39,355 nucleotides of DNA, from assembly GCA_002686055.1 (NCBI GenBank), contig NYZU01000013.1:26244-65598 (forward strand). The letters run 5' to 3'. This stretch comes from Oceanospirillaceae bacterium (GTDB taxonomy: Bacteria > Pseudomonadota > Gammaproteobacteria > Pseudomonadales > Balneatricaceae). The position numbers and the translations under genes were made by a program. Below, piece after piece: positions 12,866 to 37,505 of this stretch (within the stretch, counting starts at the first letter, position 1; the number at the start of each line of letters is the position of its first letter). The notes under the pieces are model-generated. The model had not been told where the DNA came from and made no database searches. It saw only the letters and a program-made list of their open reading frames with translations.

Positions 12866-12875
12866 GGAGACAAAA

Positions 12876-21816: not shown

Positions 21817-21920
21817 AAAAGGATAAAAATACGCTTAGATCTTTTCGGCTACAAGTAAAAGAGATCGACCTTAAACATCATTTGCTAATACTCTACACTA
21901 AAATAAGAACGGATTATTTT

Positions 21921-22436: not shown

Positions 22437-23725
22437 GTCTATCCTTATTCTTACCCCTGTTTTTAATTCTAATATTAATTGGCATGCCAATCTTTTTTGC
22501 CATGCTGGCAGCTCCTGGCGGCATGTTACTGCTCCTCAATATGGACCGTGACCTGCCCCTTCTATTTCGTAATATTTATAACGGCATTGATAGTTTCCCA
22601 CTGATGGCCATTCCTTTCTTTATGCTGGCTGGGGAATTGATGAATCGGGGTGGTATTACCCTGTCCCTGGTTAATTTTAGTCAGTCTTTATTGGGGCATA
22701 TTCGTGGCGGCTTAGCCCATGTCAATATTATGACCTCCATGCTATTTGCTGGCTTGTCCGGTAGTGCTGTGGCTGATACCAGTGCCCTTGGGTCCATGTT
22801 GATACCTGCCATGGAAAAGAATGGCTATAAGCGCAAGTTTGCTGCTGCTATTACCGCCGCTAGTTCGGTTATTGGCCCTATCATTCCACCCAGCGGCATT
22901 ATGATTATCTATGCCTATACCATGGAAGTTTCCGTGGCTTCATTATTTGCGGCAGGCATATTGCCAGGCGTATTAGTTGGCTTAAGTTTAATGGCGGTTA
23001 CCAGCTTGATGGCTAAGCGTTATGATTTCCCTATAGCCAGTAAAAAAGCTACTTGGGGAGAGCGCGGACAAGCTGCTAAATCAGCCGTTCTACCTATGCT
23101 TACTCCAGTGATTATTTTGGGTGGCATATTGGGTGGAGTCTTTACGCCAACTGAAGCCAGTGCCGTTGCCGTAGCCTATGCGCTGATATTAAGCCTGTTT
23201 GTGACTCGCACCCTTACCTTTAAAGAGTTACCCGCTATTTTTAACAAAGCCGCCATGGCTAGTGCTGTGGTGCTGCTCTTAGTAGGTGCAGCCATAGCCT
23301 TTAAAACCGTTGTTAGCTTGTCTTATGTAGCTACAGATTTAGCGGAATGGGTATTAAGTCTCAGTACATCAGTGCTGATTTTATTATTTCTTATAAACCT
23401 TTTACTGTTTGTGGTTGGTATGTTCTTAGATGCAGGACCTGCCATCATTATTTTAGGGCCCATTTTAGGCCCTGTGTTTGTACAAATGGGTATAGATCCC
23501 ATTCATTTTGCCATTATTATGAGCGTCAATTTGACCGTTGGCCTAGCTACCCCACCTATGGGTTTGGTGTTATTTGTAGCAAGCTCTGTTTCTGGTGAAA
23601 AAGTCGAAACAATCAGTCGTGCTATTTTGCCATTTTTGGCAGTGGAAATTTTGGTGATATTCCTTATTACCTTTATTCCAGAAATATCACTGACTGTTCC
23701 AAGGATCTTAGGATTAATGAATTAG
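22433..23725 (+). CDS. TRAP transporter large permease (DctM)
   Basis: 430-residue inner-membrane subunit carrying the sodium-coupled elevator transport domain. It has an intact N-terminus with LILIGMPIFFAML, then NIYNGIDSFPLMAIPFFMLAGELMNRGG, GGLAHVNIMTSMLFAGLSGSAVADTSALG, ASSVIGPIIPPSG, GGVFTPTEASAVAVAYAL and VGLATPPMGLVLFV, the family landmarks in order. Unlike the permease at 6904-8124 it is full length and has both partners. The binding protein starts 49 bases downstream. Confidence 0.93.
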   Translation: MSLSLFLPLFLILILIGMPIFFAMLAAPGGMLLLLNMDRDLPLLFRNIYNGIDSFPLMAIPFFMLAGELMNRGGITLSLVNFSQSLLGHIRGGLAHVNIMTSMLFAGLSGSAVADTSALGSMLIPAMEKNGYKRKFAAAITAASSVIGPIIPPSGIMIIYAYTMEVSVASLFAAGILPGVLVGLSLMAVTSLMAKRYDFPIASKKATWGERGQAAKSAVLPMLTPVIILGGILGGVFTPTEASAVAVAYALILSLFVTRTLTFKELPAIFNKAAMASAVVLLLVGAAIAFKTVVSLSYVATDLAEWVLSLSTSVLILLFLINLLLFVVGMFLDAGPAIIILGPILGPVFVQMGIDPIHFAIIMSVNLTVGLATPPMGLVLFVASSVSGEKVETISRAILPFLAVEILVIFLITFIPEISLTVPRILGLMN

Positions 23726-23774
23726 TCCTGGATAGAGGCATTAGCCATTGAATATAAAAATAAGAGGAAATACG

Positions 23775-24839
23775 ATGTTAAATTTGACCAAAAAAATATT
23801 CACTGCTGCTCTAATTAGTTCAAGTATTGCTCTGGCAGGTTCAGCCATGGCTGCGGACTTTAATTTGCGCGCAGTGGCCAACTCCAATGAAAACGACGAA
23901 GACTATGATGGTCTAGTAGTTTTTAAAGACTATGTAGAAGCAGCCAGTAATGGTGCCATTAGTGTCGATCTATTTATTGGTACACAGTTATGTTCCAATG
24001 GTACCGAGTGTTTGCAAGCCATTGAAGATGGTAGTGTTGATATCTATGTATCCACTTCTGGTGGTGTAGCTAGCACCTTCCCTTATGTGCAAATGTTTGA
24101 CCTACCTTATGTAATGGCCAACGACCGCGTAGCAGAAGAAGTGCTTGCTGGTTCTTTTGTTAGAGACTTGCGTGACCAGATGTTAGCTGACTCCAACGAT
24201 GTTGTGCGTCTAATGACTATTGGTAACACTGGTGGCTGGCGTAACTTTGCTAACACCCAGCGTACGCTGCGTTCACCTGCTGATTTTGAAGGTTTGAAAA
24301 TCCGTACTGTTGTGGCAGACCTACCTCAAGTGCTAGTTAAAGCATTAGGTGCTAGCCCTACGCCAATCCCATGGCCTGAGCTATTCTCCAGCTTCCAAAC
24401 AGGTGTTGTTGACGGTTCTAAGAACGGTATCACCGACATTATGGGTATGAAATTCCCTGAAGCTGGCCTACAGTATGTCACTCTTGATGGCCATGCCTAC
24501 ATGGCGGCCTTATGGATGATGAACAACGAAGTGTTTATGGATATGCCCGCTGACCATCGTCGCGTTATTGTTGATGGCTTCGCTGCTCTACAACAGGCTA
24601 CTTTTGCTAGTCCTAAGCGTAAGTCAATTCAAGCCTACCAGGAATTTACCGCTGGTGGTGGTGAACTATATGTTCCTACTCCTGATGAGAAAGCAGAGCT
24701 AGCCGCTGCTGCTGCACCAGTATATGAGTGGTTCCAAGGCAATGTTCGTGAAGGTGAGCGTTTCTTCAAAGCTTATCAAGCTGCCGCTAAAGCTGCCGAA
24801 GCTAAGTTTGCTGGACAATACGAGCGTGACCTAAATTAA
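23775..24839 (+). CDS. TRAP transporter substrate-binding protein (DctP family)
   Basis: Periplasmic binding protein of 354 residues. ATG 23775 has AAGAGGA six to seven bases upstream; the earlier ATG-type start would precede this site. A signal peptide (LNLTKKIFTAALISSS, cleavage near GSAMAADF) is followed by ISVDLFIGTQLCSNGTECLQAIEDGSVDIYV and GNTGGWRNFANTQRTLRSPADFEGLKIRT. The Arg of LKIRT is the usual carboxylate/acid-binding residue. Thus the ligand is likely an organic acid, and the neighbouring 2-hydroxyacid dehydrogenase would suit a hydroxyacid or sulfonate. Last gene of the TRAP operon, followed by a terminator. Confidence 0.92.
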   Translation: MLNLTKKIFTAALISSSIALAGSAMAADFNLRAVANSNENDEDYDGLVVFKDYVEAASNGAISVDLFIGTQLCSNGTECLQAIEDGSVDIYVSTSGGVASTFPYVQMFDLPYVMANDRVAEEVLAGSFVRDLRDQMLADSNDVVRLMTIGNTGGWRNFANTQRTLRSPADFEGLKIRTVVADLPQVLVKALGASPTPIPWPELFSSFQTGVVDGSKNGITDIMGMKFPEAGLQYVTLDGHAYMAALWMMNNEVFMDMPADHRRVIVDGFAALQQATFASPKRKSIQAYQEFTAGGGELYVPTPDEKAELAAAAAPVYEWFQGNVREGERFFKAYQAAAKAAEAKFAGQYERDLN

Positions 24840-24880: not shown

Positions 24881-24885
24881 ACTTG

Positions 24886-25368
24886 TTACTCAAATGGATA
24901 GATATGCGCCCGATAATCTTTTACCAACACCAAGCTTTCTTGAATTTGCTCGGCAGTCATCTTTTTCACAATCTCTTCCATACTGATGGCGGCATCCGGG
25001 TCTCCGCCAATAGCCGACAAAACATACCAAGCATACCCACGAATCAAATCCGGCGCCGGCATACCGCGCCCAACTTCGTAATACCAGCCAATGCCAGACT
25101 GCGCACCAGCGTGGCCGCGCAAACTGGCTCTAAGGTACCATTCAAAGGCACGAATATCGTCACGTTCAACGCCCAGCCCCAGTGCATACATACTGCCAAT
25201 CAGCTCTTCAGCATCAGCGTTGCCCGTTTGTGCCATAGGATAAAGTATCTCAAAGGCAACAGCATACTCACCTTTTTCCATCAAGTTTTTTGCATCTTCA
25301 ACATCAACCATAGCCAGAGTCGGGGTTGATAAACTTATGCAGATAACCAATAGCCATTTTTTCAGCAT
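24886..25368 (-). CDS. Sel1-repeat exported protein
   Basis: 160-residue exported protein with a signal peptide (MLKKWLLVICISLSTPTLA) and Sel1-like tetratricopeptide repeats: KGEYAVAFEILYPMAQTGNADAEELIGSMYALGLGVERDDIRAFEWYLRASLRG (about residues 30-84) and a partial third unit (GIGWYYEVGRG). Such repeats usually mediate protein contacts in the periplasm. ATG 25368 has AGGAA seven bases upstream; an upstream frame of 12 more residues lacks one. Its first 32 bases overlap, head to head, the coding start of the cytochrome gene. No partner is identified. Confidence 0.8.
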   Translation of the reverse strand: MLKKWLLVICISLSTPTLAMVDVEDAKNLMEKGEYAVAFEILYPMAQTGNADAEELIGSMYALGLGVERDDIRAFEWYLRASLRGHAGAQSGIGWYYEVGRGMPAPDLIRGYAWYVLSAIGGDPDAAISMEEIVKKMTAEQIQESLVLVKDYRAHIYPFE

Positions 25369-26632
25369 TTTATTATTCCTATGGGCTGGACCAACGGCTG
25401 CCAATAATTTGCCATGGCAACCAATTACAATTGCCGACTATGTTATCACAAGTCCTGCTAGCGTCGAGCTTGGCAAGCGACTTTTTGCCGAACCAAAGTT
25501 AAGCGGTAATAACAATATCTCATGCCAAACTTGTCACCACCCTGATCATGGCACCAGTGATGGCCTATCCCTAGGTCTTGGTGAGGGTGCAGAAGGCATT
25601 GGCCCAGAAAGAATGGCCAATAGTGGTATCAAAAAACGGGTTCCCAGACACTCCCCCACACTCTTTAATTTAGGCCATAAGTCAGTTATCGAACAATTTT
25701 GGGATGGCCGGGTATCATTTGATCCCAAGGCACCGTCTGGCTTTGATAGCCCAGCTGAAGACTGGTTACCAAAAGGTTTATCGAGCCTTACCGCCGTACA
25801 GGCCACTCTGCCCCTAACAGCCCAGTTTGAGATGGCTGGTAACACTGGCGAAAACGAGGTCATTGGTGCTGTCCGCCAGCGTATTGACTATGCTTGGCCG
25901 GTGGTAGTCGAGCGTATTATTGCCGACGACGAATATTGGGCCATGTTACAGAATACCTACCCAGACTTACAAAACCGTAGTCAGGTTAATATCACCCACT
26001 TGGCCAATGCCATTGGGGATTATATTAATACCCAATTTAGAAGCTTTAATGCACCTATCGACGCTTATGCTCGGGGTGAGGATATGCCCCTAACTGAGTC
26101 ACAAAAAGCGGGTATGGCGTTATTTTATGGCAAGGCCCAATGTGACCAATGTCACTCAGGCGCCCTGTTTAGTGACCAACAGTATTACTCCCTTGGCCTG
26201 CCACCAATGGGGCCGGGGCGCACGCGACAATGGGACCCTTGGGCTAGGGATGTGGGACGCATGGGCGTTAGTAATCAAGCCCAAGATGCTTATGCTTTTA
26301 AAGTGCCCAGTCTGCGCAATTTAGCTTTTACCGCACCCTATGGACACAATGGGGCATATGCCACCCTTGAGGGCATTATTAAACATCATAATAACCCTAT
26401 TCAGGCATTGGAAAATTATGATCGCTCACAAGCTATATTGCCTGCTGCGAGTAAGACCCTTGAGTTTATCGACTGGGTGGGCTTTAACGACAAAAGGGAA
26501 ATGCAACGCATTAAACAATCCATTGATATTGAACCTTTGCAGTTAAGCCAAGAGGAAATAGACCAGATAATCGCCTTTTTGGATTTGTTAAACGAACCCG
26601 ACCTTATTGCGCGCATTCGTGACGAGCAATAA
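25337..26632 (+). CDS. Di-haem cytochrome c peroxidase / MauG family protein
   Basis: Exported di-haem cytochrome, 431 residues, with a short signal peptide (ILLFLWAGPTAA) and two c-type haem motifs: CQTCH at residues 63-67 and CDQCH at 269-273. These fall in the two-domain plan of bacterial cytochrome c peroxidases and MauG. FWDGRVSFDP and KVPSLRNLAFTAPYGHNGAYATLEGII are conserved; the Met/His ligand region before GRMGVSNQ suggests a regulated low-potential haem. Physiologically it would reduce hydrogen peroxide in the periplasm or oxidise a protein substrate; the two cannot be separated by sequence here. The signal peptide depends on the ATG at 25337, which overlaps the opposite Sel1 gene. 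Confidence 0.88.
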   Translation: MQITNSHFFSILLFLWAGPTAANNLPWQPITIADYVITSPASVELGKRLFAEPKLSGNNNISCQTCHHPDHGTSDGLSLGLGEGAEGIGPERMANSGIKKRVPRHSPTLFNLGHKSVIEQFWDGRVSFDPKAPSGFDSPAEDWLPKGLSSLTAVQATLPLTAQFEMAGNTGENEVIGAVRQRIDYAWPVVVERIIADDEYWAMLQNTYPDLQNRSQVNITHLANAIGDYINTQFRSFNAPIDAYARGEDMPLTESQKAGMALFYGKAQCDQCHSGALFSDQQYYSLGLPPMGPGRTRQWDPWARDVGRMGVSNQAQDAYAFKVPSLRNLAFTAPYGHNGAYATLEGIIKHHNNPIQALENYDRSQAILPAASKTLEFIDWVGFNDKREMQRIKQSIDIEPLQLSQEEIDQIIAFLDLLNEPDLIARIRDEQ

Positions 26633-26847: not shown

Positions 26848-27732
26848 ATGACAAATATTTTATGTGTCGGCTCAGCCGTCTTGGATATAACATTTCAATT
26901 ACCAGAAATGCCTAGCTCCACGACCAAATATGTTGCTGAAGAAGCAGCCATGGTGGGTGGTGGTATCGCTGCTAATGCGGCGGTAGCTATTCAACGCTTG
27001 GGTGGGTGCGCCTATCTTGCTGGTCAATTAGGTAATGATATTATCGGCAAGACCATTATTGACGACTTACATAAAGAAAATATTAATGTCGATTTTGTCA
27101 CCATAACAGATCATGGGCGTTCTGCTTTTTCTTCTGTCTATATTGACGCCGAGGGTGATCGGCAAATTGTTAATTTTCGAGGCCAAAACTTGGCATTACA
27201 CCCCCAATGGCTTACATCTGACCTTACCTTCGCTGCCGTGTTAGTGGATACACGGATCCCCGAAGCCGCTTTACAAGCCTTGGATATGGCCAATGATCAG
27301 AATGTGCCTGGTATTGTTGATGGCGAAGCCCCCATTGATACCAGACTACTATATCGAGCCAGCCACGTGGCTTTCTCACGCCAAGGCCTTGTCTCTTTAT
27401 ATCCGGATACCCCATTGTCTGAAGCTTTACTTTTATGCAGTCAAGAATATGACATATGGGGGTGTGTTACCGATGGTGGTAATAGCATTCATTATACCGG
27501 GCCTAGTGGTATCGAAGTACTTGCAGCCATACCAGTGAAAGCCATTGATACCTTGGCCGCCGGAGATATTTGGCATGGGGCTTTTGCCCTATCTTTAGCA
27601 AATGACGATACTGAGCTTGCCGCTATGCAATTTGCTAATGCTGCGGCAGCATATAAATGCACACAGCCTAATGGGCGCCAAGGCGCACCCACCAAACAAC
27701 AACTAGATCAGTTTATCAAGGAGCAATATTAA
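26848..27732 (+). CDS. PfkB family sugar kinase, probable 6-deoxy-6-sulfofructose kinase
   Basis: ATP-dependent sugar kinase of the ribokinase/PfkB family, 294 residues. AAGAGGAG precedes the ATG. Substrate-binding Gly-rich VGGGIAANAAVAIQRLGG lies at 36-53, and the catalytic base is in DTLAAGD (234-240), where the usual first Gly of the GAGD loop is Ala. From memory the whole sequence follows E. coli sulfofructose kinase YihV closely: an N-terminal CVG..V.D..., KYVA, VGGG.AA.AAVA..RLG, DGE and HVAFS in the middle, and AAYKCTQPNGRQGAP at the end. The neighbouring aldolase and isomerase support sulfofructose as substrate, giving sulfofructose-1-phosphate. Other hexulose substrates cannot be excluded. 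Confidence 0.82.
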   Translation: MTNILCVGSAVLDITFQLPEMPSSTTKYVAEEAAMVGGGIAANAAVAIQRLGGCAYLAGQLGNDIIGKTIIDDLHKENINVDFVTITDHGRSAFSSVYIDAEGDRQIVNFRGQNLALHPQWLTSDLTFAAVLVDTRIPEAALQALDMANDQNVPGIVDGEAPIDTRLLYRASHVAFSRQGLVSLYPDTPLSEALLLCSQEYDIWGCVTDGGNSIHYTGPSGIEVLAAIPVKAIDTLAAGDIWHGAFALSLANDDTELAAMQFANAAAAYKCTQPNGRQGAPTKQQLDQFIKEQY

Positions 27733-28763
27733 TGAACCTTACACCAGGCAAACTATGGGGTTTACGCAGCATGGCCGATGCTCAAGGCATCTTCAAGATG
27801 ACCGCCGTTGATCAACGTCCTCCTATTAAGCAACCCATAGCAAATTATCTAGGCGTAGAGCAAGCTCCTTGGCATGACGTAGCCGAATTTAAACGCCTGC
27901 TAGTTGAGACACTACAAGCCGAAAGTACCGCCTTGCTACTGGATCCTCACTACGCTATTCCCCATGCCATAGACCAATTAAATCCCCAAAAAGGCTTGAT
28001 TGTGACCTTGGAGGATAGCTTATTTCAAGATACTGATGAAGGCCGTTTATCCTCCAATATAGATAATTGGTCCGTCGACAAAATCAAGCGTATGGGTGGT
28101 GATGCAGTAAAAGTGTTGGCCTGGTACAGACCCGACGCCAGCCCAAGTGTCAATCGTAAGCAACAGGATTATGTTAAACGTATCGGTGAGCAATGTGCTC
28201 AATTTGATATTCCCTTTTTGTTTGAACTATTAGTCTATCCCCTAGCGGCAGACCAACATCAAACCAAAGACTATATTGAAATGAAAAACAAAAAATCCGA
28301 TCAGGTACTGCAGTCCGTCGAGGAATTTGCCAAACCTGATTATGGGGTTGATGTTTTCAAACTGGAAAGCCCAGTTAATGCTGATCAGGCTGATGGTTCA
28401 TCAGAGGTTCAGGCTGTTTTTGATGAACTTGGTCAGTTAGCCAATCGGCCTTGGGTAATGCTCTCAGCTGGGGCAGGTAAAGAACAATTTAGGCGCGTGC
28501 TAGAGCATGCATTTGCGGCAGGCGCCTCAGGCTTTTTGGCGGGGCGGGCTATCTGGTTAGATGCCTTTCAGTCATACCCCGATTGGAACAAAATAAGACA
28601 TGAGCTGGAAACAGATGCCGTGGCTTACTTACAGTCTATTTCGCAATTAGCGGATAAAAAAGCACATAATTGGCAGCAACATGCCTGCTTTGGTGAGAGT
28701 GGCGCTCAATTCACTCCGGCAAGCAGCGACTTCCGCAGCCAATACAAAACAATGGTGGAATAA
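27732..28763 (+). CDS. Class I aldolase, LacD/YihT-like (probable sulfofructose-1-phosphate aldolase)
   Basis: 343-residue Schiff-base aldolase of the LacD/YihT group that would cleave a ketose 1-phosphate into dihydroxyacetone phosphate and sulfolactaldehyde. The start overlaps the kinase stop (TAATG) with AAGGAG upstream. MTAVDQRPPIKQ (AVDQR motif), ALLLDPHYAIPHAI, DAVKVLAWYRPD, VDVFKLESP with the presumed Schiff-base Lys210, and PWVMLSAGAGKEQFRRVLEHA with GASGFLAGRAIW match, in order, the corresponding stretches of E. coli YihT as I recall them. A tail of about 60 residues goes beyond YihT, similar to longer LacD-type enzymes. Tagatose-bisphosphate specificity is an alternative. Confidence 0.82.
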   Translation: MNLTPGKLWGLRSMADAQGIFKMTAVDQRPPIKQPIANYLGVEQAPWHDVAEFKRLLVETLQAESTALLLDPHYAIPHAIDQLNPQKGLIVTLEDSLFQDTDEGRLSSNIDNWSVDKIKRMGGDAVKVLAWYRPDASPSVNRKQQDYVKRIGEQCAQFDIPFLFELLVYPLAADQHQTKDYIEMKNKKSDQVLQSVEEFAKPDYGVDVFKLESPVNADQADGSSEVQAVFDELGQLANRPWVMLSAGAGKEQFRRVLEHAFAAGASGFLAGRAIWLDAFQSYPDWNKIRHELETDAVAYLQSISQLADKKAHNWQQHACFGESGAQFTPASSDFRSQYKTMVE

Positions 28764-30146
28764 ATGAAAATCGGAATCTTAGCCCTAGGGCGCCCTACTT
28801 TCGACATTGATTATGCCAACGAAAAGCTGGCCATCATGTTGCAAAAATTGGAACAGACTGGGCATAGTCTAGTCGGTAATAAAAACTTATTATTTGATGA
28901 GAATGAGGCTCAACAAGCCATAGAAAATCTCCACCAGGAACAGGTTGATCAGGTACTATTGCTACAAGTCACCTTTACTGATGCCTCTATGACCGTGGTG
29001 GTTAGTAAATCCTTTTCCCAACCCGTATCCATCTGGGCAATCCCTGAACCAAGAGCGGGTGGACGCTTACGCTTAAACTCGTTTTGTGGTTTAAATCTAG
29101 CTTCCCATGCCCTGGGCCTGAATAGTAGTCAATTCTCTTGGATATACTCCAACCCAGAGACAACCTCCGTAGATGAGTTACATGCGCTATTTAATGGCGA
29201 ACGCGCCGCAGGTAGGTTGTTGGCTAAAGATATTCCCAGTGCTAATGATGCAGGACTTAAGGTGGCTGAATCACTTAAGGGTAAACGCATTGGACGTATT
29301 GGTAATCATCCTGTGGGCTTTGATACTTCAGCCTATGAAAAAGACAGTGTGCTGTCCCTAACAGGCATTACCGTTGAAGCTATGCCCATGGACACTTTAT
29401 TCGAAAAAGCCCGGTCAACGGCCCCAGAGCGAGTTTCTGACTTGCGCACGCAACTAGATGAGCAGGTTGATAATACTAGTGAGCTGGATCAAGCTCAATT
29501 GGATCGTTCTTTACGTTTAAAGTGTGGCCTTGATGATTTACATCAAGAAAAGCAATTAGACGCCTTTGCTATACGCTGCTGGCCAGAAACCTTTACCGAG
29601 TATGGTGGTGCCGTGTGTGGGCCTGCCGCCATGCTGGGTGAAAATAAAATCCCCTGCGCTTGCGAAGCCGATGTTTATGGCTCCCTTACCCAAATGCTAT
29701 TGCAAGAGGCAGCTGATAGCCCAGTATTTCTAACCGATTTGGTTGATGTTGACGTCGAAGACAATAGCGCGGTTATTTGGCATTGTGGCCAAGCTCCCGT
29801 GTCCATGTGTGACCCAGAAGTAAAAGCCACAGGCACGGTGCATACCAATCGCAAGCAGCCCTTATTATATGAATTTCCTTTAAAACCAGGGCAAATAACC
29901 TTCGCTCGGTTAAGTAAAGCCCATAACAATATTGCTTTAGTTATTGGCAGTGCCGAAATGTTAAGCCGCCCTATGGCTTATACAGGTACTTCTGGAGTAA
30001 TGCGTTTTGAGCGTGATTCTAAAACCACATTGAAGGATATTATTGATTCTGGCCTTGAGCACCATTTTGCTATTACCTATGGTGATCATCGATCAGCATT
30101 GGTAGGTGCAGCTGGCGCATTAAATATCCCCGTTTTGGAAATCTAG
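28764..30146 (+). CDS. L-fucose/L-arabinose isomerase-fold sugar isomerase (SqvD-like candidate)
   Basis: 460-residue protein of the FucI/AraA isomerase superfamily. Metal ligands are expected from Glu275 in RCWPETFTEYGG, Glu301/Asp303 in CACEADVYGSLTQ and a His in the C-terminal half. CGPAAMLGENKIPC, typical of the family core, connects the first two. In sulfo-EMP2 clusters the sulfoquinovose isomerase (SqvD) belongs to this fold rather than the YihS type, so with a YihV-like kinase and YihT-like aldolase in the same operon, sulfoquinovose to sulfofructose is the best guess. The gene starts immediately after the aldolase stop. Fucose isomerase proper is longer (about 590 residues) and usually accompanied by a class II aldolase, which is absent. 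Confidence 0.75.
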   Translation: MKIGILALGRPTFDIDYANEKLAIMLQKLEQTGHSLVGNKNLLFDENEAQQAIENLHQEQVDQVLLLQVTFTDASMTVVVSKSFSQPVSIWAIPEPRAGGRLRLNSFCGLNLASHALGLNSSQFSWIYSNPETTSVDELHALFNGERAAGRLLAKDIPSANDAGLKVAESLKGKRIGRIGNHPVGFDTSAYEKDSVLSLTGITVEAMPMDTLFEKARSTAPERVSDLRTQLDEQVDNTSELDQAQLDRSLRLKCGLDDLHQEKQLDAFAIRCWPETFTEYGGAVCGPAAMLGENKIPCACEADVYGSLTQMLLQEAADSPVFLTDLVDVDVEDNSAVIWHCGQAPVSMCDPEVKATGTVHTNRKQPLLYEFPLKPGQITFARLSKAHNNIALVIGSAEMLSRPMAYTGTSGVMRFERDSKTTLKDIIDSGLEHHFAITYGDHRSALVGAAGALNIPVLEI

Positions 30147-30148
30147 TC

Positions 30149-31246
30149 ATGACTATTCGATATGGTTTAATTGGCTCAGGTATGATGGGGCAAGAGCATA
30201 TTCGCAACCTCAATTTACTCGATGGTTGTGAAGTAACCGCCATTGCTGAACCTGATTTAGGTATGCGGGAGTTATCCCAACAAACCGCCAATAGTCCTAT
30301 TGCGACCTATACTAATCATCATGATATGTTAGCTAATAGTGATCTAGATGCATTGGTTATTGTCGCCCCAAATCATACCCACCATAGCATCCTCAAAGAT
30401 GTATTAGATTCTAACTTACCTATTTTATGTGAAAAGCCCTTGTGCACCACTGCTGCTGACTGTGGTGAAATCATGACCTTAGCTGAGACCCGCACAGCGC
30501 CTTTGTGGGTGGCTATGGAATACCGATATATGCCTCCTGTGGCGCGGTTAATTGATGAAGTTAAGCAAGGCACCGTAGGACAACCAAGGATGATGGCCAT
30601 TCGCGAACACCGGTTTCCTTTTTTGGAAAAGATAGGTGATTGGAACCGTTTCCAGGCACAAACAGGTGGCACCTTAGTGGAAAAGTGTTGTCATTTTTGG
30701 GATCTAATGAGATTAGTATTGCAAAGTGACCCAGTGCGGGTTTTTGCCTCTGGCAATATGGATGTCAACTTTATAGATGAAAGTTATAACGGCCAACAAC
30801 CAGATATCCTTGATAATGCCTTTGTCATTTTAGATTTTGAAAATGGCAGCCGTGGCATGCTTGACCTCTGTATGTTTGCTGAGGGCTCTTACTGGCAAGA
30901 GATTGTCTCAGTAACCGGTGCACAAGCTCGTGTTGATGCCAAAGTCCCCGGCCCTGCCCGTTTTACTGTGGATGGCAAAGAACGTCATGCTGAAGTGGAA
31001 ATCTCCCACCGTGCCAGCAAAGAGGTGGTAACAGAAACTATTGAAGTTGATCACAGTATTTTACAAGCGGGTGATCATCATGGTTCCACTTTTTATCAAC
31101 ACCAACATTTTAGAGATTTAATCCTATCTGGCCAGAATCAACCTGCTGTAAGTATGGAAGATGGTTATTGGTCGGTGCTGGTTGGCGAAGCCGCCGAGCA
31201 TAGTGCTAAAACAGGTCAAGCAGTATACCTTAAGGATTTCAAATGA
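30149..31246 (+). CDS. Gfo/Idh/MocA family oxidoreductase, candidate NAD-dependent sulfoquinovosidase
   Basis: 365-residue NAD(P)-dependent enzyme. The Rossmann fold opens with YGLIGSGMMGQEHIRN; ILCEKPLCT carries the EKP motif (95-97), and GGTLVEKCCHFWDLMRL (173-189) supplies the catalytic-region His182. Family members oxidise sugars or, in glycoside hydrolase family GH188, cleave sulfoquinovosides by transient NAD oxidation. Its place inside an operon with the isomerase, mutarotase and kinase makes the GH188-type role plausible: releasing SQ from sulfoquinovosyl glycerol. A plain sugar dehydrogenase is the alternative. It starts two bases after the isomerase stop and overlaps the next gene by ATGA. 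Confidence 0.78.
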   Translation: MTIRYGLIGSGMMGQEHIRNLNLLDGCEVTAIAEPDLGMRELSQQTANSPIATYTNHHDMLANSDLDALVIVAPNHTHHSILKDVLDSNLPILCEKPLCTTAADCGEIMTLAETRTAPLWVAMEYRYMPPVARLIDEVKQGTVGQPRMMAIREHRFPFLEKIGDWNRFQAQTGGTLVEKCCHFWDLMRLVLQSDPVRVFASGNMDVNFIDESYNGQQPDILDNAFVILDFENGSRGMLDLCMFAEGSYWQEIVSVTGAQARVDAKVPGPARFTVDGKERHAEVEISHRASKEVVTETIEVDHSILQAGDHHGSTFYQHQHFRDLILSGQNQPAVSMEDGYWSVLVGEAAEHSAKTGQAVYLKDFK

Positions 31247-32241
31247 CTCTCTTTGGCCACCTAGATGACGGTACCGAGGTGCACAGTGTTACCCTGAAAG
31301 CAGGGAATCTGCGTGCTACCTTCCTAAGCTATGGCACTATTTTACAAAGCCTAGAGCTAGATGGTCATCCGTTTCCACTGGTGCTAGGGTATAACGATCT
31401 CGACCATTACCTAACCGACTCACCCTACTTTGGAGCCACAGCCGGACGCTATGCTAATCGTATTCGTGATGGGCATTTATGTATATTGGGGAAAACCTAT
31501 CAATTAAATCAAAACTTTATCGGCAAACATTGCTTACATGGTGGCATGCAGAGTATTGGTAAAAAACCTTGGCAGTTAGATGATTATACTGAGGATAGTG
31601 TGCGTTTTAGCATCCAACTTGAGGATGGTGAAATGGGCTTTCCGGGCAATATGGGTATTCAAGCTAAGTTTCAGCTTCTCGCTCCCAGCACCCTAGATAT
31701 TACCTATACGGCCACCACCGATGCCACTACGATTTGTAATTTAGCCCATCACAGTTACTTTAATTTATCGGGTGAAGAAGACATTTTGCAACATCAATTG
31801 CAAGTCAATGCAGAGGCTTTTTTGCCTGTTAACGATGAGCTTATTCCCACTGGCGAAATCCAATCTCTGGACAATCATTTGTTTGATTTTCGCCAAGCCA
31901 AGAGCATAGGCAGCATTCCAAAAGATATGGTCCTTGATCACAACTTTTGTAGCCAGTTAACCAGCCGCCCCAAGCATATAGCCACCCTCTATAGCCCAGC
32001 ATCGGGAGTAGAAATGCAATGTCTGACCACTGAACCAGGTATACAGGTATACACTGGGGCCAAGATTAACACCCAAAGCCCCGGACTTATGGGCAAAGCT
32101 ATGGGTGCATATGCTGGTATTGCCTTGGAACCACAATTATGGCCTGATGCTAATCATCACCCTCATTTTCCTAATCCAGTGCTCTTAGCTGGTGAAACTT
32201 ATTATCAAAAAACGCAATATGTCTTTGCAAAGGTAGATTAA
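31243..32241 (+). CDS. Aldose 1-epimerase family mutarotase
   Basis: 332-residue galactose-mutarotase-like protein that interconverts sugar anomers. TAGRYANRIRDG (67-78), HCLHGGMQSIGKKPW with His99 region, and LAHHSYFNLSG with the catalytic His169/170 are in the usual positions, and the Glu acid is in GIALEPQLWPDANHHP. The family includes the SQ mutarotase YihR, and clustering with the kinase/aldolase/isomerase set suggests the same role here, equilibrating the anomer released by the glycosidase. The start overlaps the oxidoreductase stop by 4 bases. Confidence 0.88.
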   Translation: MTLFGHLDDGTEVHSVTLKAGNLRATFLSYGTILQSLELDGHPFPLVLGYNDLDHYLTDSPYFGATAGRYANRIRDGHLCILGKTYQLNQNFIGKHCLHGGMQSIGKKPWQLDDYTEDSVRFSIQLEDGEMGFPGNMGIQAKFQLLAPSTLDITYTATTDATTICNLAHHSYFNLSGEEDILQHQLQVNAEAFLPVNDELIPTGEIQSLDNHLFDFRQAKSIGSIPKDMVLDHNFCSQLTSRPKHIATLYSPASGVEMQCLTTEPGIQVYTGAKINTQSPGLMGKAMGAYAGIALEPQLWPDANHHPHFPNPVLLAGETYYQKTQYVFAKVD

Positions 32242-32244
32242 ATA

Positions 32245-33687
32245 ATGAATAACCTATTTCTTATCGAAAAAAATTTGATTGGTGGCCAATGGGTTGATGC
32301 CCAGAGTGGCGCAACCTTGGCAGTAAATAACCCAGCCACAGATGAAATTATTGGCCATATCCCTAATTGTGGTGCCGAAGAAACCACCTTAGCCATTGCT
32401 GCTGCAGAGAACGCCTTTGATAGTTACAGTCGAAGTAATCTTAGTGAACGTGTTAGCTTACTAAATAACTTGCACGATGCTTTATTAGATAACCACGAGG
32501 CACTTGCTAGTCTCCTCACTATGGAACAGGGTAAACCTTTATTTGAAGCCCGTGGCGAAATTGCCATTGGCGCGGCCTATATTAAGTGGTTTGCCGAAGA
32601 AATTCGCCGCAGTAAAGGTGAGCTTATTCCGGCGCCAACCAATGATCGCCGTTTACTTGTAACCCATCATCCCGTTGGTGTCGTGGCCGCTATCACACCT
32701 TGGAACTTTCCATCTTCTATGCTGGCGCGCAAATTAGGCCCAGCCCTAGCAGCTGGTTGTACGGTAGTTGCCAAACCTGCCACGGCAACGCCTTATTCTG
32801 GTCTAGCTTGGGGCAAATTAGCTGAGGAAGCTGGTTTTCCAGCCGGTGTGGTGAATATTTTAACGGGTAGCTCCCAGGCCATTGGTGGCACCATTATGGC
32901 CAGCCCCACTGTTAGAAAAGTGACCTTTACCGGATCTACAGAAGTAGGTAAAACCCTAATCCGTCAATCCGCTGATACGGTTAAAAAAGTGTCTATGGAA
33001 TTGGGCGGCAACGCTCCATTTATTGTGTTTAACGATGCTGATATCGATGCTGCAGTAGAAGGTGCCATGATTGCCAAATATCGCAATATGGGACAAACAT
33101 GTGTCTGTACTAACCGTTTTTATGTGCAAGCTGGTGTGCACGATGAATTTGTTGCCAAACTGCAAGCTGCCACAGAGGCCATGAATATTGGTAATGGTAT
33201 GGATGATAATGTGCAACAGGGCCCAATGATCGATCAAAACGCGGTAGCTAAAGTAGAAGAAATGATTACCGATGCGGTCAATAAAGGTGGCACAATTATT
33301 AGTGGTGGTGAACGCCACAACTTAGGTAAGACCTACTTCCAACCCACTATTGTCACTGGGGCAACCGCGGATATGCAGTTTGCCACCGATGAAATCTTTG
33401 GCCCCTTATCGGCCATATTTAAATTTGATAACGATGATGAAGCCTTTGCCGCAGCTAATGCCACTGAATATGGGCTGGCGGCTTACGCTTATACCAAAGA
33501 CTTGGCACGGGCTTTTCGTCTAAGCAATGAACTTGAGTATGGCCTAATAGGTATTAATGCTGGCCTAATCACCACCGTCGAAGCACCCTTTGGTGGCCTA
33601 AAGGAAAGTGGTGTTGGCAAAGAAGGCGGTAGCCAGGGACTAGAGGATTACTTAGAAACCAAATACACCTGCCTAGCGGGCTTATAA
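32245..33687 (+). CDS. NAD(P)-dependent aldehyde dehydrogenase, GabD-like (candidate sulfolactaldehyde dehydrogenase)
   Basis: 480-residue aldehyde dehydrogenase close to the succinate-semialdehyde (GabD) group. ITPWNFPSSMLARKLGPALAAGCTVVAKPA, FTGSTEVGKTLI and the general base Glu252 in MELGGNAPF lead to the nucleophile Cys286 in GQTCVCTNR, with the second Cys288 typical of GabD-type redox control. C-terminal FGGLKESGVGKEGG is also diagnostic. Related enzymes oxidise sulfolactaldehyde to sulfolactate in sulfoglycolytic clusters, and this is the expected last step here. Succinate semialdehyde or lactaldehyde cannot be ruled out. It starts three bases after the mutarotase and ends the operon. 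Confidence 0.85.
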   Translation: MNNLFLIEKNLIGGQWVDAQSGATLAVNNPATDEIIGHIPNCGAEETTLAIAAAENAFDSYSRSNLSERVSLLNNLHDALLDNHEALASLLTMEQGKPLFEARGEIAIGAAYIKWFAEEIRRSKGELIPAPTNDRRLLVTHHPVGVVAAITPWNFPSSMLARKLGPALAAGCTVVAKPATATPYSGLAWGKLAEEAGFPAGVVNILTGSSQAIGGTIMASPTVRKVTFTGSTEVGKTLIRQSADTVKKVSMELGGNAPFIVFNDADIDAAVEGAMIAKYRNMGQTCVCTNRFYVQAGVHDEFVAKLQAATEAMNIGNGMDDNVQQGPMIDQNAVAKVEEMITDAVNKGGTIISGGERHNLGKTYFQPTIVTGATADMQFATDEIFGPLSAIFKFDNDDEAFAAANATEYGLAAYAYTKDLARAFRLSNELEYGLIGINAGLITTVEAPFGGLKESGVGKEGGSQGLEDYLETKYTCLAGL

Positions 33688-33759: not shown

Positions 33760-33950
33760 ATGGGTCTTAGATGGCCTATGATACTGCCAATCAGAATCGC
33801 TAAAAGGCATTTCTGATGTCGCAAAAGACCTATTAATTCTGGTAGCTATTACTGGTTTACCTTGATAGAGTAGTCGTAACTCTGCGCATCGAACTATGAG
33901 CAAATTTGTTGAATACGCAGGGAAAAAACAATAATAAGGAGAATAATAAA

Positions 33951-35534
33951 ATGTTTAAACCATCAATCCTAACCACTGCTATATGCTTAGCTGTATCAAT
34001 ATCTGGAGTGGCACAGGCGCAAACCCTAAACTGGGCTCGCGCTGGTGATTCTTTAACACTGGACCCCCATGCCCAAAACGAAGGCCCCACTCATACTCTG
34101 GCTCATCAAATTTATGAGCCTTTACTGCATCGCGATATGGCGGGACAAATTACCCCTGCTTTGGCGACATCATGGGCAGCCTTGGCTGATAATCCCAATG
34201 TTTGGCGCTTTAAGCTACGTCAAAATGTCCAATTCCATGGCGGCGAAGACTTTACTGCAGATGATGTGGTATACAGTCTAAATCGTGCGCAAATGGATAC
34301 AGCTGATGTCAAAGGCCTGCTGACCTCCATTCAGGAAGTGCGCAAAGTTGATGACCATACTGTCGACATTGAAACCAAGGGTGCAAACCCACTACTAATT
34401 AACAACCTTACCAATCTATTTATAATGGATTCAGGTTGGGCTCAAGCTAATGGTGCTGACAAGCCCCAAGATTTTGCCAATGGCGAAACCAGCTTTGCCG
34501 CCAGCAATGCAAATGGTACTGGTGCTTATACCCTAGTATCCAGAAAGCCTGATGAAAAGACTGTACTGAAACTGAACCCTAATTATTGGGGTAAAGGTCA
34601 GTTCCCACTGGAAGTGACTGAGATTGTCTACACGCCTATTCAATCAGCGGCAACCCGCGTAGCAGCCTTATTGTCGGGTGAAGTTGATTTTGTTCAGGAT
34701 GCACCAGTACAAGACTTAACCCGTATCGCTGGCCAAGATGGTTTGAAAGTTGTTACGGCAGCCCAAAACCGAGTGATTTTCTTTGGTATGGAACAGGGTA
34801 AAGCGGACTTAGAAACCGATTCAGTTAGTGGCAAAAACCCCTTCTCTGACAAGCGTGTTCGTGAAGCGATGAATATCGCTATCAACCGTGACGCTATTAA
34901 GAAAGTGGTTATGCGTGACCAGTCTTCACCTACGGGTGTGATTATGCCTCCGTTTGTAAACGGTTGGACTGAAGCCCTTGATGAGGTTCCTACCTATGAT
35001 GTAGATCAGGCGAAAGCCCTTATGGCTAGCGCTGGCTATGGTGACGGTTTCTCGATCACCTTAAACTGTCCAAATGACCGCTATATCAACGACGAAGCCA
35101 TCTGTCAGGCTGCCGTTGGTATGCTGGGCCGGATCGGCATTAAGGTTAATCTCGATGCTAAGCCTAAAGCTCAGCATTTCCCTCTGATTCAGAATCGAAC
35201 CACTGAGTTCTATATGCTGGGTTGGGGTGTGCCAACATTTGATTCGGCTTATATCTTCAGCTACTTGCTACACACCTCTGGTGATAAGCGTGGTACTTGG
35301 AATGGTACCGGCTATAGCAACACCGATGTGGACGCGATGATTACTAGTCTGGATTCAGAGGTGGATCTAGCACAACGTAATGCAACCATCGCCAAGATCT
35401 GGGATCAGGTGCAAGAGGATGTGGTCTATCTACCTATTCATAACCAGGTACTTAACTGGACTATGAAGGATAATATTGACTTCGCGGTACAACCAGAAGA
35501 TCAGCCACACTTCAAATACCTAAGCTTTAAATAA
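33951..35534 (+). CDS. Peptide/nickel-type ABC transporter substrate-binding protein (DppA-like)
   Basis: 527-residue periplasmic binding protein of the SBP_bac_5 family. ATG 33951 has AAGGAG nine bases upstream. A signal peptide (MFKPSILTTAICLAVSISG, cleaved near AQAQ) is followed by the family opening GDSLTLDPHAQNEGPTHTLAHQIYEPLLH and the signature WRFKLRQNVQFHGGEDFTADDVVYSLNRA. KRVREAMNIAINRDAIKK is also typical. The ligand is not evident: this family takes peptides but also nickel, oligosaccharides and glycosides. The gene follows the sugar operon directly in the same direction, so a sulfoquinovoside is a candidate. It heads a five-gene transporter operon. Confidence 0.9.
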   Translation: MFKPSILTTAICLAVSISGVAQAQTLNWARAGDSLTLDPHAQNEGPTHTLAHQIYEPLLHRDMAGQITPALATSWAALADNPNVWRFKLRQNVQFHGGEDFTADDVVYSLNRAQMDTADVKGLLTSIQEVRKVDDHTVDIETKGANPLLINNLTNLFIMDSGWAQANGADKPQDFANGETSFAASNANGTGAYTLVSRKPDEKTVLKLNPNYWGKGQFPLEVTEIVYTPIQSAATRVAALLSGEVDFVQDAPVQDLTRIAGQDGLKVVTAAQNRVIFFGMEQGKADLETDSVSGKNPFSDKRVREAMNIAINRDAIKKVVMRDQSSPTGVIMPPFVNGWTEALDEVPTYDVDQAKALMASAGYGDGFSITLNCPNDRYINDEAICQAAVGMLGRIGIKVNLDAKPKAQHFPLIQNRTTEFYMLGWGVPTFDSAYIFSYLLHTSGDKRGTWNGTGYSNTDVDAMITSLDSEVDLAQRNATIAKIWDQVQEDVVYLPIHNQVLNWTMKDNIDFAVQPEDQPHFKYLSFK

Positions 35535-35552
35535 GCCCTAAGGGTATCCATT

Positions 35553-35589
35553 AGATACTGTCCCTAAACGAAGTTTGGGGGCAGTATCT
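35553..35589 (+). other. Strong intercistronic hairpin
   Basis: A 17-bp stem (AGATACTGTCCCTAAAC with GTTTGGGGGCAGTATCT, two G-U pairs) closed by GAA lies between the binding-protein and first permease genes. No T-run follows. It is likely a 3'-stabilising element or partial terminator that raises binding-protein mRNA over permease mRNA. Confidence 0.75.
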
Positions 35590-35616
35590 ATTTCACTCTT
35601 CTATTTGAGAAACACA

Positions 35617-36597
35617 ATGATCAATATGCTTATTCGCCGTCTTGGTCAGTCGGTAATTGTATTACTGATGGTGGCGTTGGTGGCATTTATAATGTTTCGT
35701 TTTGTAGGTGATCCCATTGCGGTGATGTTGGGCCAAGAAGCCACAGAACTAGACCGCGAAGCACTACGCGAGCGTTTGGGTTTAAACAATTCCCTCCTAG
35801 TGCAATATGGCAGCTTTATTATGCGCTCTTTACAGGGCGATTTTGGCATCAGCTATCGCACTGGTGAAGCCGTATCGAGCATGATCCTTGACCGCGCACC
35901 GGCAACCATTGAATTAGCCCTCTTTTCTGGTATTTTAGCCACCATATTTGGCATTATCTTCGGTGTTACTACGGCCATTAACCGTCGCGGCGTGATTTCG
36001 CAAGCTATTATGACCACCTCACTAATCGGTGTATCTCTGCCAACATTCTTAATTGGCATCTTGCTAATTTGGCTATTTTCAGTGGAATTGGGATGGTTGC
36101 CGTCATTTGGCCGTTCTGGTGCCGTAGAAATTGGCGGTTGGCATACAAGTTTTCTTAGTTTAGATGGCTTTAAAGCGTTAATTTTGCCGGGCATTACCCT
36201 CGGCTTATACCAAATGACCCTAATTATGCGCTTAGTACGAGCAGAAATGCTGGAAGTACTTGGCCAAGACTATATTCGCTTTGCCCGTGCCCGAGGCCTA
36301 CCGATGCGCAAGATATATTATTACCATGCCTTAAAGAACACTCTGGTACCTGTGATTACTATTATTGGCCTGCAATTTGGTTCTATTATTGCCTTTTCCA
36401 TTATCACTGAATCTGTGTTCCAATGGCCGGGACTGGGCTTAATGTTTATCAATTCTATTTACTACGTCGATATTCCTGTTATGTCAGCCTACCTAGTTTT
36501 GGTAAGCCTAGTATTTGTCACCATTAACCTGTTGGTCGACATTCTTTATCAATTAATCGACCCTCGCTTAAGCGATGCCCAAACAGGAGCCAACTAA
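35617..36597 (+). CDS. Peptide/nickel-type ABC transporter permease (DppB-like)
   Basis: 326-residue inner-membrane permease with six hydrophobic segments. The family opening is MLIRRLGQSVIVLLMVAL, then QYGSFIMRSLQGDFGISYRTGE. The EAA loop, which contacts the ATPases, reads RARGLPMRKIYYYHALKNTLVPVITIIG. The ATG at 35617 (GAGAAA upstream) is preferred over longer frames; 35626 is possible. Its stop and the next start share a base (TAATG). Confidence 0.9.
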   Translation: MINMLIRRLGQSVIVLLMVALVAFIMFRFVGDPIAVMLGQEATELDREALRERLGLNNSLLVQYGSFIMRSLQGDFGISYRTGEAVSSMILDRAPATIELALFSGILATIFGIIFGVTTAINRRGVISQAIMTTSLIGVSLPTFLIGILLIWLFSVELGWLPSFGRSGAVEIGGWHTSFLSLDGFKALILPGITLGLYQMTLIMRLVRAEMLEVLGQDYIRFARARGLPMRKIYYYHALKNTLVPVITIIGLQFGSIIAFSIITESVFQWPGLGLMFINSIYYVDIPVMSAYLVLVSLVFVTINLLVDILYQLIDPRLSDAQTGAN

Positions 36598-37505
36598 TGT
36601 TTAAACGCTGGCTTGATTCGGATTTTATGTACTCATTAGTGCGAACCCCCACCGCTCTAATTTCGGCTGTGGTCTGTATAATCCTTGCCATAGGTGCGCT
36701 GGGCGCTCCTTGGATAGCACCCACAGATCCATTTGATATGGCTAGCATCGACTTGATGAACGGCTTTACACCGCCTTTGCAAGCCAACGATTTTACCGGT
36801 GAAACCTTTCTACTTGGCACCGACGATCAGGGTCGAGACCTATATTCGGCTATTCTCCATGGCTTACGCATATCCTTGTTTGTAGGCTTTGCATCAGTAT
36901 TGCTTGCTATGGCTATCGGTATCACTTTGGGCCTGTTAGCGGGTTACCTTGGCGGTTGGATCGATGCCTTGATTATGCGGGTGGCTGATATCCAGATGAC
37001 CTTCCCATCTATTCTAGTCGCCATGCTTATTTATGGTATTGCCCGCGGTATTCTGCCCCCTGAAGCCCGCGCCGATATGGCCATTACCGTCCTTATTCTC
37101 TCTATCGGTTTATCCGAATGGGTATCCTTTGCGCGAACCGTGCGTGGCACGTCTATGGTAGAAAAACAAAAAGAGTATGTTACGGCCTGTCGACTTATTG
37201 GTTTATCCCACCTAAATATAATGGTTCGACATATACTACCCAACGTGATTAATCCGATACTGGTTATCGCTACTATCACTCTAGCACTCGCGATTATTGC
37301 TGAAGCCACTCTATCCTTTTTGGGCGTTGGCGCACCACCCACAGAACCGTCCCTAGGCACACTGATCCGCATTGGCCAAGATTTTCTGTTTTCCGGTCAA
37401 TGGTGGATTATCTTCTTCCCAGCTATGACCTTGTTAGCCCTCGCTTTAGCAGTAAATCTATTAGGCGATTGGCTCCGCGACTTTTTTAATCCGAGGTTAT
37501 CATGA
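36597..37505 (+). CDS. Peptide/nickel-type ABC transporter permease (DppC-like)
   Basis: 302-residue second permease. The N-terminal part shows APWIAPTDPFDMASIDLMNGFTPP and the family stretch LGTDDQGRDLYSAILHGLRISLFVGF; the EAA loop is ACRLIGLSHLNIMVRHILPNVINPILV. Ends NLLGDWLRDFFNPRLS, a near-universal C-terminus for this subunit. Coupled to the permease before (one-base overlap) and the ATPase after (ATGA), so it is part of one membrane complex. Confidence 0.92.
   Translation: MFKRWLDSDFMYSLVRTPTALISAVVCIILAIGALGAPWIAPTDPFDMASIDLMNGFTPPLQANDFTGETFLLGTDDQGRDLYSAILHGLRISLFVGFASVLLAMAIGITLGLLAGYLGGWIDALIMRVADIQMTFPSILVAMLIYGIARGILPPEARADMAITVLILSIGLSEWVSFARTVRGTSMVEKQKEYVTACRLIGLSHLNIMVRHILPNVINPILVIATITLALAIIAEATLSFLGVGAPPTEPSLGTLIRIGQDFLFSGQWWIIFFPAMTLLALALAVNLLGDWLRDFFNPRLS

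Follow-up and report, generated by a model that had tools for sequence, protein, structure and literature searches.

Which compound is degraded by the six genes at positions 26848-33687 of a 39,355-nucleotide stretch of Oceanospirillaceae bacterium contig NYZU01000013.1 (hereafter the window), how does it enter the cell, and where does its degradation end? The original prediction, made from the letters of this stretch, read the six genes as a sulfo-EMP2-type operon (EMP, Embden-Meyerhof-Parnas) for sulfoquinovose (SQ). SQ, a sulfur-containing sugar, is abundant in the membranes of plants and algae. Its production amounts to about ten billion tons per year (PMC10755693) and its uptake has been described as poorly characterised (PMC8873060). 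From sequence, the locus is very probably a hybrid sulfo-EMP island with a core route that leads from an SQ glycoside to sulfolactate. The operon itself appears to be of a known kind; the new part is its surroundings, a module at 21882-26632, overlooked by the original prediction, which consists of a tripartite ATP-independent periplasmic (TRAP) transporter, a Sel1-repeat protein and a MauG-like protein and lies beside SQ clusters. A transporter and a redox pair that follow SQ genes across three pathways make a specific, testable uptake candidate, and the island suggests that one marine cell may carry SQ to sulfite rather than excrete sulfolactate.

A six-gene operon and its predicted route

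The window covers contig positions 26244-65598 of a host assembly of 1.44 Mb in 46 contigs, and its end coincides with the contig end. Six plus-strand open reading frames fill 26848-33687, where neighbouring frames overlap by up to 4 bases or are separated by up to 3, in agreement with the tight packing first described. By Pfam and NCBIfam families they encode, in this order, a PfkB-family putative sulfofructose kinase of the YihV type (26848..27732, PF00294), a class I putative sulfofructose-1-phosphate aldolase of the DeoC/LacD family (27732..28763, PF01791 and PRK12858), a SqvD/SftI-like candidate SQ isomerase with an arabinose/fucose isomerase fold (28764..30146, PF02952, NF048012 and fold), a predicted NAD-dependent sulfoquinovosidase of family GH188, SqgA (30149..31246, GFO_IDH_MocA and Protein Data Bank (PDB) entries 8qc2/8qc3), a GalM-type mutarotase (31243..32241, PF01263) and a GabD/SlaB-type putative sulfolactaldehyde (SLA) dehydrogenase (32245..33687, PF00171 and TIGR01780). 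With this gene set in a gammaproteobacterium, SQ catabolism by the operon, as originally proposed, is well supported at the level of protein families. Sites resembling promoters and terminators were no more numerous than in shuffled controls and were not used as evidence.

In the proposed route SQ or SQ-glycerol would enter through the TRAP transporter, perhaps also through a family-5 ATP-binding cassette (ABC) transporter, and the TRAP-Sel1-MauG module would act at this entry step. GH188 SqgA would release SQ through NAD-dependent transient oxidation at C3, GalM would equilibrate the anomers, and the metal-dependent SqvD-like isomerase would convert SQ to sulfofructose, which the PfkB kinase would turn into sulfofructose-1-phosphate. 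The class I aldolase would then yield dihydroxyacetone phosphate and SLA, and the GabD-type enzyme would convert SLA to sulfolactate. Sulfolactate would probably be oxidised by a SlcC-like enzyme, decarboxylated by a ComDE-like one and finally split by Xsc into acetyl phosphate and sulfite. The sequences themselves show the families, the key residues, the gene order with its recurrence and the conflict between gene trees; we infer which substrates are used, in which direction they flow, what the module does and what becomes of sulfolactate. The names SlcC, SuyB, ComDE, Smo, SqoD and Hps are putative throughout; Smo and SqoD are named from general family features and gene context.

Relatives of the isomerase were collected from genome_contigs with an alignment query, which led to the identification of 434 relatives among 507 pattern matches, the best 80 of which were kept; a single-sequence scan of the same set gave 15 pattern matches and 0 relatives. 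By record title the 80 kept loci belong mainly to Rhodobacteraceae and relatives of Rhizobiales, with culturable Shimia and Aliiruegeria strains among the holders of the island and with three gammaproteobacteria (L047, L057 and L070). All hybrid-locus counts refer to 81 distinct loci, the best 80 plus G181, selected solely for an isomerase relative and including loci cut by contig ends; 81 and not 82 are counted because L047 (contig JASMLZ010000094) is the same contig as L017. Relatives of the kinase were found in 75 of these loci, of the aldolase in 69, of GH188 in 70, of GalM in 40 and of the dehydrogenase in 36. Kinase, aldolase, isomerase and GH188 co-occur in 61/81 loci and all six genes in 26/81, and the six-gene order of the window was found again in 23/81; many alphaproteobacteria share it. 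This co-occurrence exceeds chance. The isomerase is present in 2/15 genomes of the genus and an NF048012 match in 2/369 genomes of an even sample of the class, the window's own genome being counted both times. The genus mate G010, a gammaproteobacterial metagenome-assembled genome, has the gene order of the window. A plasmid search returned only 18 records, at less than 60% identity.

Evidence from the individual enzymes

The GH188 protein matches PDB entries 8qc2 (E 3e-113) and 8qc3 (E 1.4e-111), while 8zn9, an 'Oxidoreductase, putative', scores slightly better (2.6e-120). The first two are the characterised enzymes FlSqgA and ArSqgA, respectively, and the active site of ArSqgA comprises Lys107, Tyr136, Glu163, Arg166, Leu170 (through its backbone), Lys172, Glu189, His193 and His321 (PMC10755693). 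With an offset of 11, deduced from constant spacing, eight of these nine residues correspond to K96, Y125, R155, L159, K161, E178, H182 and H310 of the window protein, all of which are found in 71/71 sequences. The ninth, Glu163, would map to R152 (68/71), adjoining E153 (equivalent to 164; 71/71). On this alignment the catalytic and sulfonate-binding residues of ArSqgA are present in the window protein, and the check for sulfonate-binding residues suggested with the original prediction comes out in favour of SQ for this enzyme.

The kinase matches the sulfofructose kinase YihV (7ag6, E 4.8e-41) and is homologous to E. coli YihV over its whole length, at 32% identity (295 columns, blastp). Its residues K27 (73/75), N109 (71/75) and R136 (75/75) align with K27, N109 and R138 of YihV, which we take to be sulfonate-binding, although one paper checked for such residues did not yield them. 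Between the aldolase and YihT identity is 26% across residues 9-275 of 343 (269 columns), and K210 of the aldolase, present in 70/70 sequences, aligns with the lysine of the YKVE motif of YihT. The claim that kinase and aldolase follow YihV and YihT segment by segment holds as homology at these identities, and the aldolase is nearer LacD. For the mutarotase, PF01263 was matched with E 1.8e-75 and identity to YihR is 25%.

The isomerase matches NF048012, 'sulfoquinovose isomerase', with E 9.1e-85. Folds were compared because a search of PDB sequences with phmmer and a profile gave 0 relatives of this protein. The model, built from 35 aligned sequences, has a pLDDT of 92.7 and matches L-arabinose isomerase with a VIA Z of 33.9 (301 residues, 2.6 A) and L-fucose isomerase with a VIA Z of 31.1 across residues 156-460. 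E301 and D325 are found in 82/82 sequences and H442 in 80/82. In the dehydrogenase R162, R280, C286 and E252 are all found in 37/37 sequences; the two arginines correspond by motif to Arg171 and Arg289 of RlGabD (PMC10599462), and the RlGabD structure 8c54 is matched with E 3.8e-157.

Several observations weigh against the assignment of these enzymes to SQ. The top PDB match of the kinase is 2rbc, an unassigned 'sugar kinase' (E 6e-47), and its N109 is not universal. The aldolase scores highest with the tagatose-bisphosphate aldolase family, since both the LacD-type profile PRK12858 (355 bits) and the top PDB match 8tnf (E 2.7e-95) lie far above YihT (E 2.2e-19); a literature search for structure 8TNF gave unrelated papers only, and one for 8C54 gave none. 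The NF048012 score of the isomerase, 285 bits, is far under the curated equivalog cut-off of 700, and the protein is therefore filed as SqvD-like and not as SftI. The dehydrogenase scores best with succinate-semialdehyde dehydrogenase (SSADH) families (E. coli SSADH 3jz4, E 4.2e-171; TIGR01780 638 bits, just under the cut-off of 646), and R162 and R280 do not separate SSADH from SLA dehydrogenase. Many isomerase loci lack a recognised relative of GalM or of the dehydrogenase, as counted above, and the source genome is a 72% complete assembly.

The LacD profile, the SSADH match and IolG-type background scores are also what an operon for another sugar, of the tagatose, fucose or inositol type, would explain. 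We consider such an operon highly improbable and rejected it on the sulfonate contacts of the GH188 SqgA, the full-length homology of the kinase to YihV, the NF048012 match of the isomerase and the SuyB/ComC-like genes that adjoin the clusters in relatives.

Class of the pathway

Sulfo-EMP2 is defined by SqvD, SqiK (PF00365) and SqiA (PF01116) (PMC9594981). A FucI-family isomerase of the SqvD type was found in the window (PF02952, NF048012 and fold), but kinase and aldolase belong to PF00294 and PF01791 in place of the SqiK and SqiA families, and plain sulfo-EMP2, the class named in the original prediction, was rejected for this reason. Compared with the canonical sulfo-EMP pathway of E. coli, the operon has a YihV-type PfkB kinase and a YihT-type class I aldolase but not a YihS-type isomerase; blastp of the isomerase against YihS gave no significant match (best E 1.8). 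Assigned by family, kinase and aldolase are of the sulfo-EMP families and the isomerase alone is EMP2-like. Together with an SLA dehydrogenase of the aldehyde dehydrogenase family, this mix corresponds at family level to the sulfolactate-forming hybrid sulfo-EMP pathway, a kind already known, to which we assign the operon. Hybrid sulfo-EMP has been reported from Actinobacteria, Firmicutes and Proteobacteria (PMC10599462), and enzyme mixtures termed 'hybrid' are in print (PMC9594981, PMC10599462, PMC12890257); the mixture that had been called notable is present, but its novelty was overstated.

With the published hybrids that have an SLA dehydrogenase the window shares mixed sulfo-EMP and EMP2 enzymes and the chemistry from SQ to sulfolactate, but it uses GH188 as glycosidase and has TRAP, Sel1 and MauG genes linked (PMC10599462, PMC9594981). 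The Yersiniaceae hybrid has SqiA, whereas the window has an EMP2-type isomerase and a class I aldolase (PMC9594981). The sulfo-EMP pathway of Arthrobacter sp. AK01 likewise combines YihV and YihT homologues with an SLA dehydrogenase and GH188 SqgA, but its isomerase is YihS, and TRAP, Sel1 and MauG are unmentioned in the available parts of the two papers (PMC8873060, PMC10755693). Sulfo-EMP2 of Bacillus urumqiensis has an SqvD-type isomerase and identical intermediates, with SqiK, SqiA and SqvB where the window has PF00294, PF01791 and GalM (PMC9594981). The hybrid sulfo-EMP route of Vibrio mediterranei AbY-1905 also belongs to a marine gammaproteobacterium; it differs in joining E. coli-type enzymes to SqiA and in its product, 2,3-dihydroxypropane-1-sulfonate (DHPS) (PMC13372026).

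A TRAP-Sel1-MauG module upstream of the operon

The TRAP transporter occupies 21882..24839 on the plus strand, with DctQ at 21918-22436 (PF04290), DctM at 22433-23725 (PF06808) and DctP at 23775-24839 (PF03480), whose family includes sialic-acid and isethionate binders. It is followed by a Sel1-repeat protein on the minus strand (24886..25368, PF08238), probably secreted as judged by eye from its hydrophobic N-terminus, and by a MauG/bCCP-like di-haem protein on the plus strand (25337..26632, PF03150), which is divergent from the Sel1 gene and overlaps its start. A GntR/UTRA regulator (20839..21537, minus strand, PF00392 and PF07702) is a candidate local regulator. In the Sel1 protein W89, W107 and W126 (numbered from TTG 25404) are invariant in 52/52 sequences, and both haem motifs of the MauG-like protein, C63xxC66H67 and C269xxC272H273, are found in 50/50. 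Two haem motifs and the MauG-family profile liken the latter to MauG and to bacterial di-haem cytochrome c peroxidases (PDB 1nml, 3orv), from which it differs in being paired with a Sel1 protein, often beside SQ clusters; against TIGR03791 (MauG, tryptophan tryptophylquinone maturation) it scores 116 bits and does not reach the cut-off of 444.

The module recurs with the hybrid operon. Among the 81 hybrid loci TRAP-P is found in 58, Sel1 in 51 and MauG in 50, and in the 54 loci with at least 7 kb on both sides the counts are 46, 41 and 40, with GH188 in 50. The order is TRAP Q-M-P, Sel1 on the opposite strand, the MauG-like gene and then the kinase, and Sel1 and MauG genes are divergent and adjacent in 50/50 loci that hold both. 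The median gap between the aligned parts of MauG and kinase is 69 bases in 43 same-strand loci; in three loci the two are on different strands.

The module is also found with two other SQ pathways, those with a sulfoquinovose monooxygenase (sulfo-SMO) or dioxygenase (sulfo-SDO). In genus mates without the isomerase (L109, L111 and L112) GH188, GntR, a SmoC-like monooxygenase and SmoB- and SmoA-like genes are followed by TRAP, Sel1 and MauG, and the module order of the window is shared by the four genus-mate SMO loci that reach MauG (L109, L111-L113) and by the SDO loci L114 and L128. The SMO loci L113 and L110 are truncated towards GH188, and L110 is truncated ahead of MauG as well. In the SDO loci L114 and L128, from another genus, the order is MauG, Sel1, TRAP, a SmoB-like reductase, GntR, GH188 and a SqoD-like dioxygenase. 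Among 116 genomes of the family, Sel1 (threshold E<=1e-35) occurs in 10 and GH188 in 17. GH188 is present in eight of these 10 genomes; the other two (G002 and G007) have Smo-like (SmoC/B/A) genes beside Sel1, at contig ends, and in G431 Sel1 and GH188 lie on separate contigs. In a phylum sample Sel1 was found in 10/398 genomes, and the nine loci besides that of the window comprise five SMO loci, one hybrid EMP locus and three without SQ genes.

After the release of SQ, the sulfo-EMP route has no step in common with either the SMO or the SDO route (PMC13372026). Because the module recurs beside pathways that have only SQ uptake and release in common, it would act in uptake or entry, and we give a role as an SQ-acquisition module at the entry step, read from gene neighbourhoods, about an even chance. 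Two observations weigh against it. Of four SDO loci chosen by GH188 alone (L114-L117), TRAP is present in L114, L115 and L117 and Sel1-MauG in L114 only, so that L115 and L117 have TRAP without the pair and L116 has neither; and in 3/9 phylum-sample loci (L123-L125) the Sel1-MauG pair has no SQ genes within about 10 kb. A further-reaching idea, speculative and on the whole doubtful, is that the module is a portable one, coupled in marine proteobacteria to any of three unrelated cassettes, that sulfosugar import by TRAP requires the MauG-like enzyme to act on Sel1, for example by oxidising its invariant tryptophans, and that this genome records a cassette swap. No similar module is mentioned in the titles and abstract openings of the papers found on SQ together with TRAP transporters, MauG or cytochrome c peroxidase, and other papers may draw it.

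Some further features of the module region were noted. If each gene starts at the ATG whose product has a signal-like N-terminus, the divergent Sel1 and MauG-like genes share about 32 bases at their 5' ends (25337-25368), and each promoter would therefore sit within the coding sequence of the other gene. An open frame at 24883-25329 is antisense to the Sel1 gene. A nine-pair terminator-like hairpin (24859-24880) directly follows the TRAP genes; such sites occur regionally at the shuffled rate. In L122, L123 and L125 a glycerate-kinase-like gene (by eye) adjoins the MauG-like gene, even where SQ genes are absent.

Two candidate importers

Downstream of the operon, on the same strand and about 0.2 kb away, lies a family-5 (dipeptide/opine type) ABC transporter (33906..39213, PF00496) with a substrate-binding protein (SBP; 33951-35534), two permeases and two ATPases, of which one permease and one ATPase were assigned by NCBIfam and the rest by eye. 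From its position it is perhaps a second candidate SQ importer. This raises the alternative that the ABC transporter imports SQ in place of TRAP, and that TRAP-Sel1-MauG is a hitch-hiker or serves another compound, which we regard as unlikely. It draws on the location of the ABC genes, on SBP relatives (62-65% identity) that follow the SlcC-like gene as the next gene recognised in four Shimia loci among 82 searched, on the opine-binding proteins AgaA and AccA among the PDB matches of the SBP, and on the three Sel1-MauG pairs without SQ genes. However, SBP5 matches were found in just 5/81 hybrid loci (one at 25%), against 58/81 for TRAP-P, TRAP accompanies SQ genes in three pathways, and in L064, L068 and L077 the inversion takes in TRAP, Sel1 and MauG together as one block.

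Probable mosaic make-up of the island

Comparison of best identities indicates that the locus is a mosaic, in which GntR, TRAP, Sel1 and MauG are nearest the sulfo-SDO loci of the window's own family and the enzymes nearest alphaproteobacterial sulfo-EMP loci. The best percent identities to same-family SDO versus alphaproteobacterial EMP loci are 65 versus 30 for GntR, 68 versus 55 for TRAP-Q, 88 versus 80 for TRAP-M, 88 versus 77 for TRAP-P, 83 versus 73 for Sel1 and 74 versus 52 for MauG, but 52 versus 73 for GH188; at a coverage filter of 0.6 the TRAP-M counts and the alphaproteobacterial TRAP-Q value (44) were too low, and the TRAP-Q value of 55 at filter 0.5 was used. The window GntR is 57-65% identical to the GntR of four same-family SDO loci. 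To SMO loci the best identities are 44 for GntR, 74 for TRAP-P, 72 for Sel1, 51 for MauG and 52 for GH188.

Quick trees of TRAP-P and GH188 (44 and 42 rows, the alphaproteobacterial EMP rows randomly thinned to 25 from 55 and 67) conflict in the same way. In the TRAP-P tree the window joins L114 and L128 (SH-aLRT 99), whereas in the GH188 tree it shares a clade with 22 further hybrid EMP rows (SH-aLRT 99), apart from 12 SDO and SMO rows (100); seven EMP rows fall outside this clade, and L018 is a long branch in the trees. Against a strict division, four alphaproteobacterial EMP rows (L073, L084, L093 and L098) fall into the larger TRAP-P group that contains the window and the SDO rows (SH-aLRT 97), and SDO-like TRAP is therefore not exclusive to SDO loci.

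Among the genomes seen, the mosaic is in the window's genome only, and the TRAP-P of G010, with the same gene order, groups with EMP rows. Both facts would suit an assembly or binning artefact in which the end of an SDO-type contig was joined to an EMP-type operon. We judge this improbable: there is no G+C step at the junction, and a single false join does not explain the mosaic because the EMP-associated SlcC-like gene (19708-20640) is located beyond the SDO-type block as seen from the operon.

Fate of sulfolactate

The glycolysis of the original prediction ended in sulfolactate. The steps to this compound are matched, but SlcC-like, ComDE-like and Xsc genes were missed, and sulfolactate may be an intermediate. 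The SlcC-like 2-hydroxyacid dehydrogenase, a putative sulfolactate dehydrogenase, is encoded at 19708..20640 on the minus strand (PF02826/PF00389). Its relatives are found in 57/81 hybrid loci, and in 0/8 SMO and 0/5 SDO loci of at least 19 kb. SuyB-like genes are present in 11/81 and ComC-like genes in 8/81 hybrid loci; the SlcC-like gene adjoins both in L018, and in G181 SuyB-like (galactarate/altronate dehydratase family), ComC-like (NF040650, 188 of 500 bits) and SlcC-like genes follow the SQ genes. Contig 21 of the window's genome encodes Xsc (905 bits, above cut-off), an LldD-like protein and a fused ComDE-like protein (192 of 221.5 and 130 of 147.95 bits), as well as HisD-like, short-chain dehydrogenase/reductase and zinc-dependent alcohol dehydrogenase genes, which we read as HpsN/O/P-like. 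G010 shares this stretch from part of the zinc-dependent alcohol dehydrogenase gene through Xsc, as far as its contig reaches, and has Xsc and the fused ComDE-like gene together as well.

In 18 genomes picked from those in hand, without a background set, SuyB was found in 10, Xsc above cut-off in 14 and at least one of the two in 18/18; ComDE-type matches occur in nine and exceed the cut-off in six. The presence of SlcC-like, ComDE-like and Xsc genes makes degradation of SQ to sulfite in one cell possible, as has been proposed for one Ensifer strain with the sulfo-Entner-Doudoroff pathway (PMC10599462). On gene content, oxidation, decarboxylation and cleavage of sulfolactate by Xsc in the same genome could equally well prove right or wrong. 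The ComDE scores under cut-off, from a protein that matches phosphonopyruvate decarboxylase too, count against it.

The pathway could instead end at sulfolactate, excreted as in Arthrobacter, with the SlcC-like enzyme and TRAP serving re-uptake or an unrelated hydroxyacid and ComDE/Xsc serving taurine or DHPS; we hold this to be a tenable option, if short of an even one. A SuyB homologue was not found in G000 (72% complete) or G010 (98%), with G181 as positive control, and Xsc is not specific because it is above cut-off in most of the genomes tested. Moreover, Arthrobacter excretes sulfolactate (PMC8873060), and SLA dehydrogenase has been named the final step of sulfolactate-excreting pathways (PMC10599462). 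Against excretion stand the restriction of the SlcC-like gene to hybrid loci in the counts above, the SuyB- and ComC-like genes in some of these loci, and SuyB or Xsc in every genome of the 18.

In L038 a HisD-like (HpsN-like) gene at about 20115-21383, roughly 9 kb downstream of the isomerase, is 60% identical to the contig 21 copy, and a LacI-type regulator relative lies at 15568-16563.

Other genes of the window

At 5244-9159 the window contains an MttB-superfamily methyltransferase gene that lacks in-frame stops, next to genes for a TRAP large permease (minus strand) and a homocysteine S-methyltransferase; this may be a locus for non-pyrrolysine demethylation of methylamine or betaine. In the region 10127-17843 three minus-strand open reading frames (10127-11575, 14815-16338 and 16335-17843) appear by eye, from their translations, to be photolyase/cryptochrome-like.

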